From assembly GCA_028285025.1 (NCBI GenBank), contig JANQQH010000006.1:1-11207 (forward strand): DNA of 11,207 bases, in the 5' to 3' direction. The notes beneath the pieces are model-generated. The model did no database searches. It was not told the DNA's origin and was given only the letters and a program-made list of their open reading frames with translations. A program made the translations under genes and the position numbers. Origin of the DNA: Hyphomicrobiaceae bacterium. Lineage in GTDB: Bacteria > Pseudomonadota > Alphaproteobacteria > Rhizobiales > HXMU1428-3. Positions 1,065 to 5,780 of this stretch are shown piece after piece (the first letter of the stretch is position 1; every line of letters begins with the position of its first letter).

Positions 1065-1094
1065 ATAATATTGTTGTGAGCAAAAGTTGATCAA
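1065..1094 (-). promoter_or_regulatory. possible promoter of the small secreted protein gene
   Basis: On the minus strand, TTGATC (1089-1094) and TATTAT (1065-1070) are 18 bases apart, close to the sigma-70 consensus. The start site would lie near 1058, giving a leader of about 57 bases to the ATG at 1001. The -35 overlaps the last codons of the SDR gene. This is a pattern match only. Confidence 0.4.
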
Positions 1095-2551
1095 GACGTA
1101 AGCGACTTGAAAGGGAAACTTTTACCAAGCGCGTCTCGTAATGTTGGCGATTGAAAAACAAATCCTGAAGCCAATGCCTTTTTAGGCACAACCCTTTGAC
1201 CGCCCAGCAAAAGCTCTTTGGCCAAATCTGACAAGCCAAGCTTTAACAATGTCGCGCTCAAAGGCAAAACCGCTGGTCGGTTCAACACGCTCCCCAGCGC
1301 TTTGGCAAAATCTTTATTCCGCACAGGAAACGGCGCCACACCATTTACTGGCCCGTCAAGATCTTGAGTTATCAACGCATGAATGATTAACCGAATAACA
1401 TCATCCAGATCAATCCAACTCATCCATTGTTTACCAGAGCCAATAGGCCCACCCAAACCATACTCAAACGGAACAAGAAGGTTAGCAAGCATCCCCCCTT
1501 CACTTCCCAAAACCAAGCCAATGCGCAAGCTTACCACCCGGCACTGGTAAACTTTCAACCGATCAGCCGCCTGTTCCAAACTTTGGCAAACCTCGTGCGT
1601 AAAACATGGACGTGCCTTGCTTTCTTCACTTAACTCTTCATCTTCGCGCAAACCATACCAACCAATGGCAGAGGCAATAATCACAGTTTTGGGCGGCACA
1701 TAAAGGCGGGCACAAAGTTGTTCTATTTGAGCAATCAAATCCAATCTAGAGTTAACAATGCGCTCTCTTTTCGCCCTGGTCCACAACCCATTGGCCAAAG
1801 GTTCACCGGCAAGGTTAATGATGGCATCAACAGGGTCATCATCCCGAACCTCATCAAGATTTGTGATAATATTAACCGGGCTTCCCAACTTGGCCGCCTC
1901 TTGTGGTCTGCGCGTTAAAACGGTCACACTATGCCCATTTTCAATCAGACCTGCTGTCAGCCGTTTACCAATAAAGCCGGTCGCCCCAGTAATGAGAATG
2001 TGATGATGCCGTTTAAGAGCCTTAGTCAAATCACCTGCAGGGGGGCGTTCTAAATGGTTAAGCCGGTTGACTGCCAAACAATCACGAACACCAAATACAA
2101 AAACGCCAATGCTAGCAAAGGTCAGAACCCAACTGCCCCAACCATAATAAACAGGGACATAAGCGGTGTTAAATGTAAACAAACCCCACAAAGCAGGCAT
2201 TAAAAGCGCTAAAATCGCACCGTAATTCAACGCCAATAGCGTGTGCAAAACCCTCTCTGTCGCGGGTAATTTACGGCTCAAATCTTCTTCGACAAAATCC
2301 CAAAGTGTGATCACCACTTCTATCAAGATAAAGCCCATCGCAAGCAGTGCAAACCACCCGTAAGGCACCCCCCAGGCAAAACAAAAAAACAAGCCGCTAT
2401 AAATAAAATTTCTTATCGCATGCAGTTTTAACTCATTTTGCGCACTTGGTTGCCAAGCTAATTTTTCAGAAAACTCATGATGAAACAAAGTGTCACTGGC
2501 ACCCATGAGCAATTGCAAAAAAACGAGAGCCCATAATAAATCACTGGTCAT
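1091..2551 (-). CDS. TIGR01777-type SDR/epimerase with N-terminal membrane domain
   Basis: The protein has 486 residues in two parts. Residues 1-160 hold four or five hydrophobic segments (about 3-18, 48-62, 65-85, 103-123, 138-157). Residues 184-486 form an extended short-chain dehydrogenase/reductase-like domain of the TIGR01777 (YfcH, SDR39U1) family. Visible marks are the nucleotide-binding GATGFIG (189-195), NLAGEPL (246-252), SAIGWYG (294-300, holding the tyrosine at the catalytic-type position), the family signature GKQWMSWIDLDDV (373-385) and a C-terminal DUF1731-like region. Typical members are about 300 residues, so the N-terminal membrane domain is an addition and should anchor the enzyme at the inner membrane. 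The substrate is unknown. Its ATG overlaps the stop of the DUF4166 gene (ATGA at 2548-2551), so the two are co-transcribed and probably translationally coupled. No clear terminator is seen after it. Confidence 0.88.
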   Translation of the reverse strand: MTSDLLWALVFLQLLMGASDTLFHHEFSEKLAWQPSAQNELKLHAIRNFIYSGLFFCFAWGVPYGWFALLAMGFILIEVVITLWDFVEEDLSRKLPATERVLHTLLALNYGAILALLMPALWGLFTFNTAYVPVYYGWGSWVLTFASIGVFVFGVRDCLAVNRLNHLERPPAGDLTKALKRHHHILITGATGFIGKRLTAGLIENGHSVTVLTRRPQEAAKLGSPVNIITNLDEVRDDDPVDAIINLAGEPLANGLWTRAKRERIVNSRLDLIAQIEQLCARLYVPPKTVIIASAIGWYGLREDEELSEESKARPCFTHEVCQSLEQAADRLKVYQCRVVSLRIGLVLGSEGGMLANLLVPFEYGLGGPIGSGKQWMSWIDLDDVIRLIIHALITQDLDGPVNGVAPFPVRNKDFAKALGSVLNRPAVLPLSATLLKLGLSDLAKELLLGGQRVVPKKALASGFVFQSPTLRDALGKSFPFKSLTS

Positions 2552-3276
2552 TGTTCAATCTCCTCAAAAATCGCGGTTTGATAAATCAGCTCGCCAAGAA
2601 CTGGATGATGAAGACAAAAACTGTAGCGAAAGCGTTTTGGGCCCGTTTCTCTATGTTCAACAACCAACCGGCCCGGTGATAAAAAACGGGGAAGAACAAT
2701 CCGTTTTTTGCCAAACAGCAAAAAATAGTGGTTAGAAATAAAAAACAAGGTTTTCTCTTTAACTTTAACATCAAGCGCAATGCCGATGTTTTTTGAAATA
2801 ATTTCTTCAAGTCCGGTTGGGCCAGCAAATCGTTTGACAGATTGAATGACCTGCAGAAAGGTTTTGGAACTAGGATAAAGCCTTGTCCAATACTGGCCTT
2901 CAAAGTCACGCGCTTCTTTAACGATCACTGTGGCCGGCCCTCTAACATTGTCCTCCTGCGGCAAGGGGGCCCCAATAAATTTGCTTAATTTGGCCAGGAT
3001 CAGTCCTATTTTAGACAATCGGGTTTTATGAATACGCCCTTGATAAACAATGACTTTTCTATGACTGAAAGATTTTACAAACCTTATTTGCACACAAAGA
3101 GGTAAATTGACCCAATCCTCGCCCACCAAAGTTGGATAGCGTAAAGATTTTAAAAGCGCCTTTCTCGTTAAAGGCATACTTTCACAAGACGGCTTTTGAG
3201 CGGCAAAATCTTTGTCTATATTTTGCCCGTTTAAGCAAGGTACCAACATTTTCCTATCTCTAAAAAATCTTTTCAT
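2548..3276 (-). CDS. DUF4166 domain protein, first gene of the SDR operon
   Basis: The protein is about 242 residues, basic and soluble, without a clear signal peptide. It resembles DUF4166 (PF13761) proteins: a region with VYQGRIHKTRLSKIGLILAKL and a following IGAPLP (about 78-106), then VIVKEARDFEGQYWTRLYPSS, split here around the W-x-R-x-Y/F core near residue 130, LPRFLSPG (195-202), and HPVLGELIYQ near the C-terminus (224-233). Its function is not known; the family often sits beside SDR-like proteins. The start is uncertain. The open frame can begin at a TTG at 3331-3333, but that would put the palindrome 3279-3298 inside the gene. I prefer the ATG at 3274-3276; an ATG at 3247-3249 with GATAGG upstream is also possible. 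It overlaps the SDR gene by four bases. Confidence 0.75.
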   Translation of the reverse strand: MKRFFRDRKMLVPCLNGQNIDKDFAAQKPSCESMPLTRKALLKSLRYPTLVGEDWVNLPLCVQIRFVKSFSHRKVIVYQGRIHKTRLSKIGLILAKLSKFIGAPLPQEDNVRGPATVIVKEARDFEGQYWTRLYPSSKTFLQVIQSVKRFAGPTGLEEIISKNIGIALDVKVKEKTLFFISNHYFLLFGKKRIVLPRFLSPGRLVVEHRETGPKRFRYSFCLHHPVLGELIYQTAIFEEIEQ

Positions 3277-3278
3277 AA

Positions 3279-3298
3279 ATTTCTGTAATAACAGAAAT
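3279..3298. promoter_or_regulatory. 20-bp palindromic operator candidate before the DUF4166 gene
   Basis: ATTTCTGT (3279-3286) and ACAGAAAT (3291-3298) are perfect inverted 8-mers around AATA. The same two arms with the same 4-base spacing occur at 4051-4070 before the GbsR/MarR-type regulator. On the minus strand the sequence TATTAT (3297-3302) overlaps its edge in the same register as the -10 at the second site, though no good -35 is seen here. It is probably the binding site of the neighbouring regulator. Confidence 0.7.
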
Positions 3299-3380
3299 AA
3301 TAATTTAAAAAATTTTGGGCCCTTAAAAAACAAGACCCATAATCAAAAAATTTATTAAATATCTTTCAGATCACCCGAGC

Positions 3381-3419
3381 TTAAACCCCTTAAAATTAGG
3401 GAAAAACACAAGGGTTTAA
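3381..3419 (-). terminator. weak hairpin after the regulator gene
   Basis: TTAAACCC (3381-3388) can pair with GGGTTTAA (3412-3419), extended by CTT/AAG over a bulge, with a loop of about 20 bases. It lies about 50 bases after the regulator stop on the minus strand. No U-run follows, so the call is tentative. Confidence 0.3.
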
Positions 3420-3467
3420 AAAAACACTTTAGTACATCATCATAATCTATTCATCTTAACGATTATG

Positions 3468-4061
3468 CTATTTTGCCTTTCCACCGCCTACAAATCTCAT
3501 AATTGTTTTACCCATTTTCATCATCGCAAAAATTTTTGTTTTTGGCACTGATGACATATCCACATACCACCCGTCTAGCACGCTCATAAAATCACGCATC
3601 GCAACAATGCGCTGTTTTGCCAATGGCGTGACAGATTTATCCTTTTTTGCCTCTTCCACACAAAGGTCCATAATTTCAAGGGTCGGGTTTATTTCGCGTT
3701 TTTTGCGCCCCCGCGCAATCGCCATCAGCATTTCCCACAAATCCCCTTCTGCTTCAAAGTGGTCCCGCCGGTCGCCCAAAACATGCACCCGTCGGATCAA
3801 CTCCCAACTGAGCAATTCTTTCAAAGAATTTGAAACATTAGAACGCGCTAACCCAAGGGTTTGAGAGATTTGTTCCGCTGTCAATTGCTCTCCTGTGACA
3901 TAGAGAAGAGCATGGATCTGAGCCACAGAGCGATTAACCCCCCAATGAGTACCCATTTCCCCCCAATGGACAACAAATCGCTCGGTTACAGGGCCAAAAT
4001 CTACGCAAGCGTCAGATAGACCTGCTTGATATCCATCTTTATTTTTAGTAATTTCTGTCAT
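3468..4061 (-). CDS. GbsR/MarR family transcriptional regulator
   Basis: The protein has 197 residues from the ATG at 4059-4061. It matches the GbsR group (COG1510): an N-terminal VTERFVVHWGEMGTHWGVNR (25-44), typical of the group, a winged helix-turn-helix at about 60-93 (LTAEQISQTLGL, then ARSNVSNSLKELLSWELI), and GDRRDHFEAEGDLWEML (96-112) as the wing and following helix. Members are dimeric repressors; GbsR of Bacillus senses choline, but the ligand here cannot be told. The open frame extends 31 codons upstream, but that extension is hydrophobic, unlike the family, and would span the promoter, so I chose M32. The start codon lies inside a palindrome shared with the DUF4166 promoter region, which implies autoregulation. 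It lies 191 bases upstream of the DUF4166-SDR operon on the same strand. Confidence 0.88.
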   Translation of the reverse strand: MTEITKNKDGYQAGLSDACVDFGPVTERFVVHWGEMGTHWGVNRSVAQIHALLYVTGEQLTAEQISQTLGLARSNVSNSLKELLSWELIRRVHVLGDRRDHFEAEGDLWEMLMAIARGRKKREINPTLEIMDLCVEEAKKDKSVTPLAKQRIVAMRDFMSVLDGWYVDMSSVPKTKIFAMMKMGKTIMRFVGGGKAK

Positions 4062-4070
4062 TACAGAAAT
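4051..4070. promoter_or_regulatory. 20-bp palindromic operator candidate at the regulator start
   Basis: ATTTCTGT (4051-4058), CATT, and ACAGAAAT (4063-4070) form a perfect inverted repeat identical in arms and spacing to 3279-3298. It overlaps both the -10 hexamer (4069-4074) and the regulator's ATG (4059-4061). A bound dimer here would block RNA polymerase, so negative autoregulation is the simplest reading. Confidence 0.72.
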
Positions 4071-4097
4071 GATAGATAGTATCTGTAGTAGAGTCAA
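4069..4097 (-). promoter_or_regulatory. promoter of the GbsR/MarR-type regulator
   Basis: On the minus strand, TTGACT (4092-4097) and TATCAT (4069-4074) are separated by exactly 17 bases. The expected start of transcription, about 7 bases after the -10, falls at or next to the A of the ATG at 4061. There is no Shine-Dalgarno sequence before that ATG, which fits a leaderless mRNA. Confidence 0.6.
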
Positions 4098-5657: not shown

Positions 5658-5780
5658 GTGCCTTAACTCTCATGGTGAGATTTTTGCATTTTAGATCCTC
5701 TTGTCAAGGGCGTTCACGCTTGTTCAACCCTTGACAAGAGGATCTAAAATGCCAAAGTCGCACCATGAGAGTTAAGGCAC
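5658..5780. repeat. 123-bp near-perfect inverted repeat between bamB and der
   Basis: The arms 5658-5710 and 5728-5780 are each 53 nt and pair with 50 Watson-Crick pairs, one G.U (on the plus-strand RNA) and two mismatches, around a 17-nt loop (5711-5727). The outer 20 and inner 24 pairs are perfect; all differences lie in the nine positions 5678-5686 / 5752-5760. It is non-coding. It could be a dispersed palindromic element or MITE, a strong RNA stem that ends or processes the bamB transcript, or both. I see no target-site duplication and no U-run after it. Other copies cannot be checked here. Confidence 0.9.
5680..5707 (-). promoter_or_regulatory. possible der promoter within the inverted repeat
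   Basis: On the minus strand a perfect TTGACA (5702-5707) is followed after 16 bases by AAAAAT (5680-5685), a 4/6 match to the -10. Transcription would start near 5672 and read into der with a leader of about 120 bases. The mirror TTGACA (5731-5736) on the plus strand lacks a comparable -10. This is a pattern match only. Confidence 0.3.

Follow-up and report, generated by a model that had tools for sequence, protein, structure and literature searches.

The 20-bp palindrome ATTTCTGT-N4-ACAGAAAT, which occurs twice in the window (the whole stretch of 11,207 nucleotides analysed here, from a Hyphomicrobiaceae bacterium), is very probably the operator of the adjacent GbsR-type regulator. According to this reading of the sequence, the regulator would repress its own gene from one copy (O1) and a DUF4166-SDR operon from the other (O2), and would be released by a ligand. 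A local autoregulated repressor of the MarR type is an already known kind of circuit; what is new here is the branch of the family, its operator, its target genes and the placement of the start codon. The features of the region are as follows.

4092..4097, minus strand: predicted -35 TTGACT from the promoter scan, beginning 27 bp ahead of the palindrome
4069..4074, minus strand: predicted -10 TATCAT from the promoter scan, overlapping O1 by 2 bases
4051..4070, minus strand: candidate operator O1, ATTTCTGT-AATG-ACAGAAAT, an exact palindrome holding the regulator ATG and the predicted transcription start
4059..4061, minus strand: start codon ATG of the regulator, inside O1
3468..4061, minus strand: GbsR-type MarR-family regulator, 197 aa (PF12802, 38.7 bits)
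3316..3339, minus strand: terminator-like hairpin between the regulator and O2, from folding against shuffles
3297..3302, minus strand: possible -10 TATTAT at O2, weak, read from the sequence and absent from the promoter scan list
3279..3298, minus strand: candidate operator O2, ATTTCTGT-TATT-ACAGAAAT, an exact palindrome 2 bases ahead of the DUF4166 ATG
2548..3276, minus strand: DUF4166 protein, 242 aa, with its ATG at 3276-3274
1091..2551, minus strand: TIGR01777-family SDR with an N-terminal extension, overlapping the DUF4166 gene by ATGA

The palindrome in the window and in its own genome

Both copies are exact, with perfect arms, and lie at 3279-3298 and 4051-4070, where the sequence-only reading had located them. 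Their minus-strand centres are indeed TATT and AATG, respectively, and no third copy is found in the window even with up to three mismatches. One copy sits at the start of the regulator gene and the other directly ahead of the DUF4166 gene, as had been described. The pair had been called very unlikely by chance, and this holds: given the base composition of the window, 5e-6 exact copies are expected in the window and 0.001 in the genome. In dinucleotide shuffles of the window, matches with up to three mismatches averaged 0.09, and 2 of 200 shuffles gave at least two of them.

The genome-wide search that had been suggested for this organism was run on its own assembly (2.41 Mb, 549 contigs, 90% complete) and has returned only the two known sites at up to two mismatches. 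This count fits the predicted self-contained regulon of regulator, DUF4166 protein and SDR. The reversed control pattern matched 4 places at the same threshold, so loose matches alone are unimpressive, but both real sites are exact. Overall, a chance origin of the palindrome is rejected by the shuffles, the composition expectation, the related loci, and the sampled genomes with their reversed control.

Elsewhere in the window, a long inverted repeat (GTGCCTTAACTCTCATGGTG ... CACCATGAGAGTTAAGGCAC) was seen by eye at 5658-5780, between der-like and bamB-like genes.

Conservation at related loci

A search for the palindrome at related loci had also been proposed, and its conservation there is very strong. 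The lack of conservation that had been named as a refutation is not seen. Within -160/+60 of the start of the regulator match, the palindrome is present at up to two mismatches in 80 of 80 loci (the best 80 of 591 confirmed), although these loci are not independent of each other (27 are Bradyrhizobium and 20 Sphingomonas by title). Actually, 53 of these sites have no mismatch, 26 have one and a single site has two, while 661 of 771 control windows (220 bp each, taken from these loci) have 7–9 mismatches in their best match. Only 14 control windows showed 0–2 mismatches, and these probably fell on second sites. The 80 loci are those closest to an alignment in which 8 of 13 rows start with MTEI, a string encoded by the right arm. 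All that escapes this bias is the left arm, the whole-genome scans, the second sites and those 7 of the 80 loci that were not scored with an internal ATG. Some genomes of the 80 loci seem to be present in the genome samples as well.

In the genus, all 7 other genomes carry a site, at up to two mismatches, at the regulator or at its DUF4166-SDR operon. When we scanned the 8 genus genomes with G or C permitted at one base per arm and at most one mismatch, 17 places were found, 15 of them at the regulator/DUF4166 locus, and the reversed control gave 1. In one congener (G003), the site on contig C322 precedes the DUF4166-SDR genes at the contig end. Two palindromes with one mismatch lie off the regulator contig (G003:C285:12521-12540 and G007:C12:51337-51356), and may be further targets or chance matches. 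The order, sampled with 199 genomes, has 29 regulator matches scoring 249 bits or more, of which 28 carry the site at up to two mismatches and the remaining one (G015) at three.

Several individual observations were made at these loci. In L174 (G169), the regulator match contains two internal stops and may be a decaying copy, yet the site persists at one mismatch. L065 has four sites (-1225, -6, +608 and +1429 from the regulator match) and two DUF4166 genes; its contig is labelled Anaerolineae, yet its regulator groups among Alphaproteobacteria, possibly from mis-binning. In addition, a degenerate third half-site, ACNG, was seen 9 bp past the right arm. It accompanies 51 of 80 first sites, 13 of 24 second sites and 10 of 23 sites of the cyd-associated clade described below; its mirror image on the left accompanies 2, 6 and 6, respectively. 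The third half-site may reflect more than one dimer, and in first sites it is partly coding.

Association with the regulator in sampled genomes

In 484 sampled genomes we have found 28 exact palindromes, distributed over 24 genomes, and 26 of the 28 adjoin such a regulator gene. The 199 genomes of the order contribute 18 exact copies in 15 genomes (17 adjoining the regulator gene), and the 289 genomes of the class contribute 12, of which 10 lie outside the window's own genome and 9 of these 10 adjoin the regulator; the two sets share 4 genomes. The reversed pattern has no exact copy in either search.

Two exact copies (G198 and G441; L143 and L214) have no regulator, DUF4166 or SDR gene in their 3-kb locus, and in G198 no regulator was found anywhere in the genome. 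These two copies are what would speak for binding of the sites by a different transcription factor. We consider this most improbable, since the other 26 exact copies adjoin this very regulator gene and the sister regulator clade carries a matching operator variant. The adjacent GbsR-type protein is the preferred candidate.

The regulator and its start codon inside the palindrome

That the regulator is GbsR-like has been borne out. It contains a MarR winged-helix domain (MarR_2, PF12802, 38.7 bits against a cut-off of 27), and its best solved relative, at the top of 12 matches, is Mj223 (1KU9, E 2.6e-20), which is the published modelling template for GbsR. Against the CudC equivalog NF047500 it scores 48 bits, below the cut-off of 218. 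The aromatic cage for choline/betaine is described as absent in GbsR members outside osmostress (PMC6207618).

Ahead of the regulator, the window has TTGACT-17-TATCAT, with 10 of 12 matches. Promoter-like matches in this region (4, against a shuffle mean of 2.9) are not above shuffles, so the argument for a promoter is carried by conservation and not by the scan. In 71 of the best 80 of 591 loci, TTGA or TTGC begins exactly 26 bp ahead of the palindrome. The junction has the consensus TCnGAT-ATT; its GAT keeps the G in 51 of the same 80 loci and has C in that place in 12. With a 17-bp spacer, the typical -10 would be [GC]ATATT, ending inside the left arm (TTGAC-17-[GC]ATATT), and transcription is predicted to start at about palindrome position 9–11. 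This is where the ATG sits, at a constant point of the palindrome and in an open frame, in 73 of the 80 loci. From the promoter spacing and the ATG inside the palindrome, we predict a leaderless, autorepressed mRNA whose first bases would be operator.

Of the two arms, the right one is coding in the regulator gene and the left one is not. In all 73 loci with the ATG inside, codons 2–3 are ACA GAA, while elsewhere in these genes ACA serves 67 of 545 Thr codons (12%) and GAA 300 of 959 Glu codons (31%). From these fixed codons, the coding arm looks to be held at the DNA level. Conservation of MTEI purely at the protein level is rejected as an explanation for the left arm, which does not code, for the choice of codons and for the second sites.

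As the start codon lies inside the palindrome in these 73 loci, one could suppose that the palindrome acts as an RNA hairpin controlling translation. However, the transcription start is predicted inside the palindrome, which would leave the left arm outside the mRNA, and the sister clade keeps the 8-4-8 layout although 20 of its 23 sites lie 20–50 bp ahead of the coding region. This makes the hairpin extremely unlikely.

If O1 is a DNA operator, a regulator dimer bound there would cover the last bases of the -10, the start point of transcription and the ATG, and would repress the regulator's own gene. The sign of regulation is unreadable from sequence and O2 has no good -35, which would suit an activator or a dual-acting regulator in place of a simple repressor. 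Such a role is very unlikely in our judgement, because O1 spans just the place expected to block polymerase, and the relatives GbsR, OpuAR, CydE and CioR are described as repressors (PMC6207618, PMC7396694, PMC6096048, PMC11837568).

The DUF4166-SDR operon and the second site

Repression would extend to the DUF4166-SDR operon by binding of the regulator at O2, and a ligand, possibly hydrophobic, would release it. The first gene product matches DUF4166 (PF13761) with 89.4 bits against a gathering cut-off of 23, and the second matches TIGR01777 with 295 bits against 207.35. The DUF4166 protein is tentatively predicted by modelling to form a beta barrel, with a resemblance to nitrobindin and fatty-acid-binding proteins; its sequence search of the PDB gave one match, at E 0.81. 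With regard to possible heme binding, H208 and H224 hardly vary across 32 DUF4166 rows.

Among the best 80 of 591 loci, DUF4166 lies downstream of the regulator in 73. A TIGR01777-like SDR is found in 45 of the 80 under score cut-offs, a saccharopine-dehydrogenase-like gene in 23 and DCC1-like matches in 14, these three counts coming from models of 2–9 seeds on uncurated ORFs. Other genes occupy the loci that lack DUF4166: L095 has DUF3429, L128 a fatty acid desaturase and L134 an SDR-DCC1 fusion.

A second site (up to three mismatches) stands ahead of DUF4166 in 21 of 73 related loci, or 22 of 74 including the window. Its presence goes with the distance from the regulator stop to DUF4166: 8 of 11 loci with a gap of at least 150 bp have it, against 14 of 63 with a shorter gap (74 loci including the window). 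This distribution, together with the lack of TTGAC at the usual distance ahead of second sites (by eye), would suit O2 as a roadblock or auxiliary site that stops transcription reading through from the regulator gene; a roadblock mode is proposed for B. subtilis GbsR (PMC7396694). On the other hand, the terminator-like hairpin precedes O2 in the window (-11.7 kcal/mol for the 31-base stretch against a shuffle mean of -3.4), so the operon should need its own start, and the -10-like TATTAT abuts O2. Weighing both sides, we regard the roadblock role as somewhat unlikely, and take O2 preferentially as a promoter operator.

A general terminator ahead of second sites is rejected: folding covered the 14 of 25 second sites that have a T tract, and only three of them (in the window, in L060 and in L096) came out clearly below shuffles. 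An A/T tract of the type AAATTTTTT(G) stands shortly ahead of some second sites, e.g., in L060, L063, L078 and L083, usually with no clear hairpin. DNA looping between O1 and O2 was also considered and rejected, as a rough calculation on a few site distances gave no constant helical phase.

A sister clade with a variant operator

In the order, 28 regulator matches of 192–214 bits (leaving out a partial match in G001 and 13 weaker ones) form a separate clade with 100/100 support in a tree of 74 rows, built from the full set of 28 sister rows together with the window and 45 further rows out of 101 of its branch. At 22 of the 28 sister loci, a cydA-, cydB- or CydDC-like gene lies within 2 kb. Pfam identifies cytochrome bd subunits I and II for the L039 queries, subunit I in L041, and ABC transporters for the remaining queries, which we take to be CydDC.

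These sister loci have their own operator, ATTTCAGA-N4-TCTGAAAT, in 23 of 28 cases at up to three mismatches (4 with none, 9 with one, 5 with two and 5 with three), while 0 of 125 control windows have it at up to four. It is absent at up to three mismatches in L197, L199, L200, L202 and L206. Of the 23 sites, 20 begin 20–50 bp ahead of the matched coding region. That is, the 8-4-8 layout is common to both branches, and the differences between them fall on positions 6 and 8 of the half-site.

The stretch ARSNVSNSLKEL is presumably the recognition helix, as judged from MarR folds. In it, all 102 rows of the window branch (99 distinct) have A as residue 73 and N, T or S as residue 79, whereas in the 23 sister rows with the operator (the five loci named above being excluded) residue 73 is S in 20 and residue 79 is M in 23. 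These are alignment numbers, equal to 72 and 78 from the ATG. The comparison rests on one phylogenetic split and is a correlation only, and many further residues differ between the branches, e.g., W34/F, V43/I, S46/T and H51/Y. As a tentative extension, which we hold possible but somewhat short of probable, this alphaproteobacterial GbsR branch may guard a hydrophobic-ligand module, made up of the barrel-like DUF4166 and an SDR or saccharopine-dehydrogenase-like protein, with an operator that doubles as a leaderless start and with specificity against CydE set by the recognition helix, chiefly by residues 73 and 79.

Implications

The recurrence of the palindrome beside related regulators in many bacteria points to a widespread, uncharacterised and self-contained gene circuit. 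It offers a candidate operator and target for many regulators that are still uncharacterised, among them those of Bradyrhizobium, Sphingomonas, Hyphomicrobium and Ruegeria, and the two-base change of the operator ties them to the CydE branch, for which a footprint exists. Direct tests come within reach for the role of DUF4166 as well as for the DNA code of the GbsR family. In addition, the start codon inside the operator is a compact and widely kept arrangement that predicts leaderless autoregulation.

Comparison with known systems

In the open-licence literature we have found neither DUF4166 nor this regulator-DUF4166-SDR circuit. The family survey PMC6207618 does not use the terms DUF, Bradyrhizobium, Sphingomonas or Hyphomicrobium anywhere in its main text, and its figures and supplements group some genes as unknown.

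B. subtilis GbsR is likewise a repressor of the family that uses an A/T-rich inverted repeat with a 4-bp spacer near the transcription start (PMC7396694). It differs in its targets, gbsAB and opuB, in sensing choline (PMC7396694, PMC6207618), and in an operator that lies downstream of the mapped start (PMC7396694). CioR of Chromobacterium violaceum differs in its cioAB target, and its DNA binding is reported to be abolished by zinc or iron (PMC11837568). CrtR of Corynebacterium glutamicum is, as proposed here, a MarR-type local repressor with a very small regulon, but it has a TTAA motif and a divergent carotenoid operon; its own mRNA is reported to be leaderless, as we predict for the regulator here (PMC5401885).

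Among the closest known systems, CydE of Alishewanella sp. WH16-1 is compared here by operator sequence. CydE is also a GbsR-type repressor of its own operon, but it controls cytochrome bd and is derepressed by sulfate (PMC6096048). The window regulator is not beside cytochrome bd genes; it adjoins DUF4166 and SDR genes, and these also stand beside it at 6 of the 7 congener loci, the G003 locus being split over contigs. In place of the CydE-subgroup operator, the window branch has ATTTCTGT-N4-ACAGAAAT. A second, dissimilar CydE footprint, GGGATGCGCATATGCAAAT, is also reported (PMC6096048), which indicates that recognition in the CydE family involves more than this palindrome. Footprint site 1 of CydE, TATTTCAGAAATTTCTGAAAGTTCA, can be written as ATTTCAGA-AATT-TCTGAAAG, i.e., in the 8-4-8 layout and with one mismatch to the sister operator; its half-site is ATTTCAGA, against ATTTCTGT in the window branch (PMC6096048). 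Since the sister operator matches this footprint, the window branch uses a variant of the 8-4-8 operator of the family.
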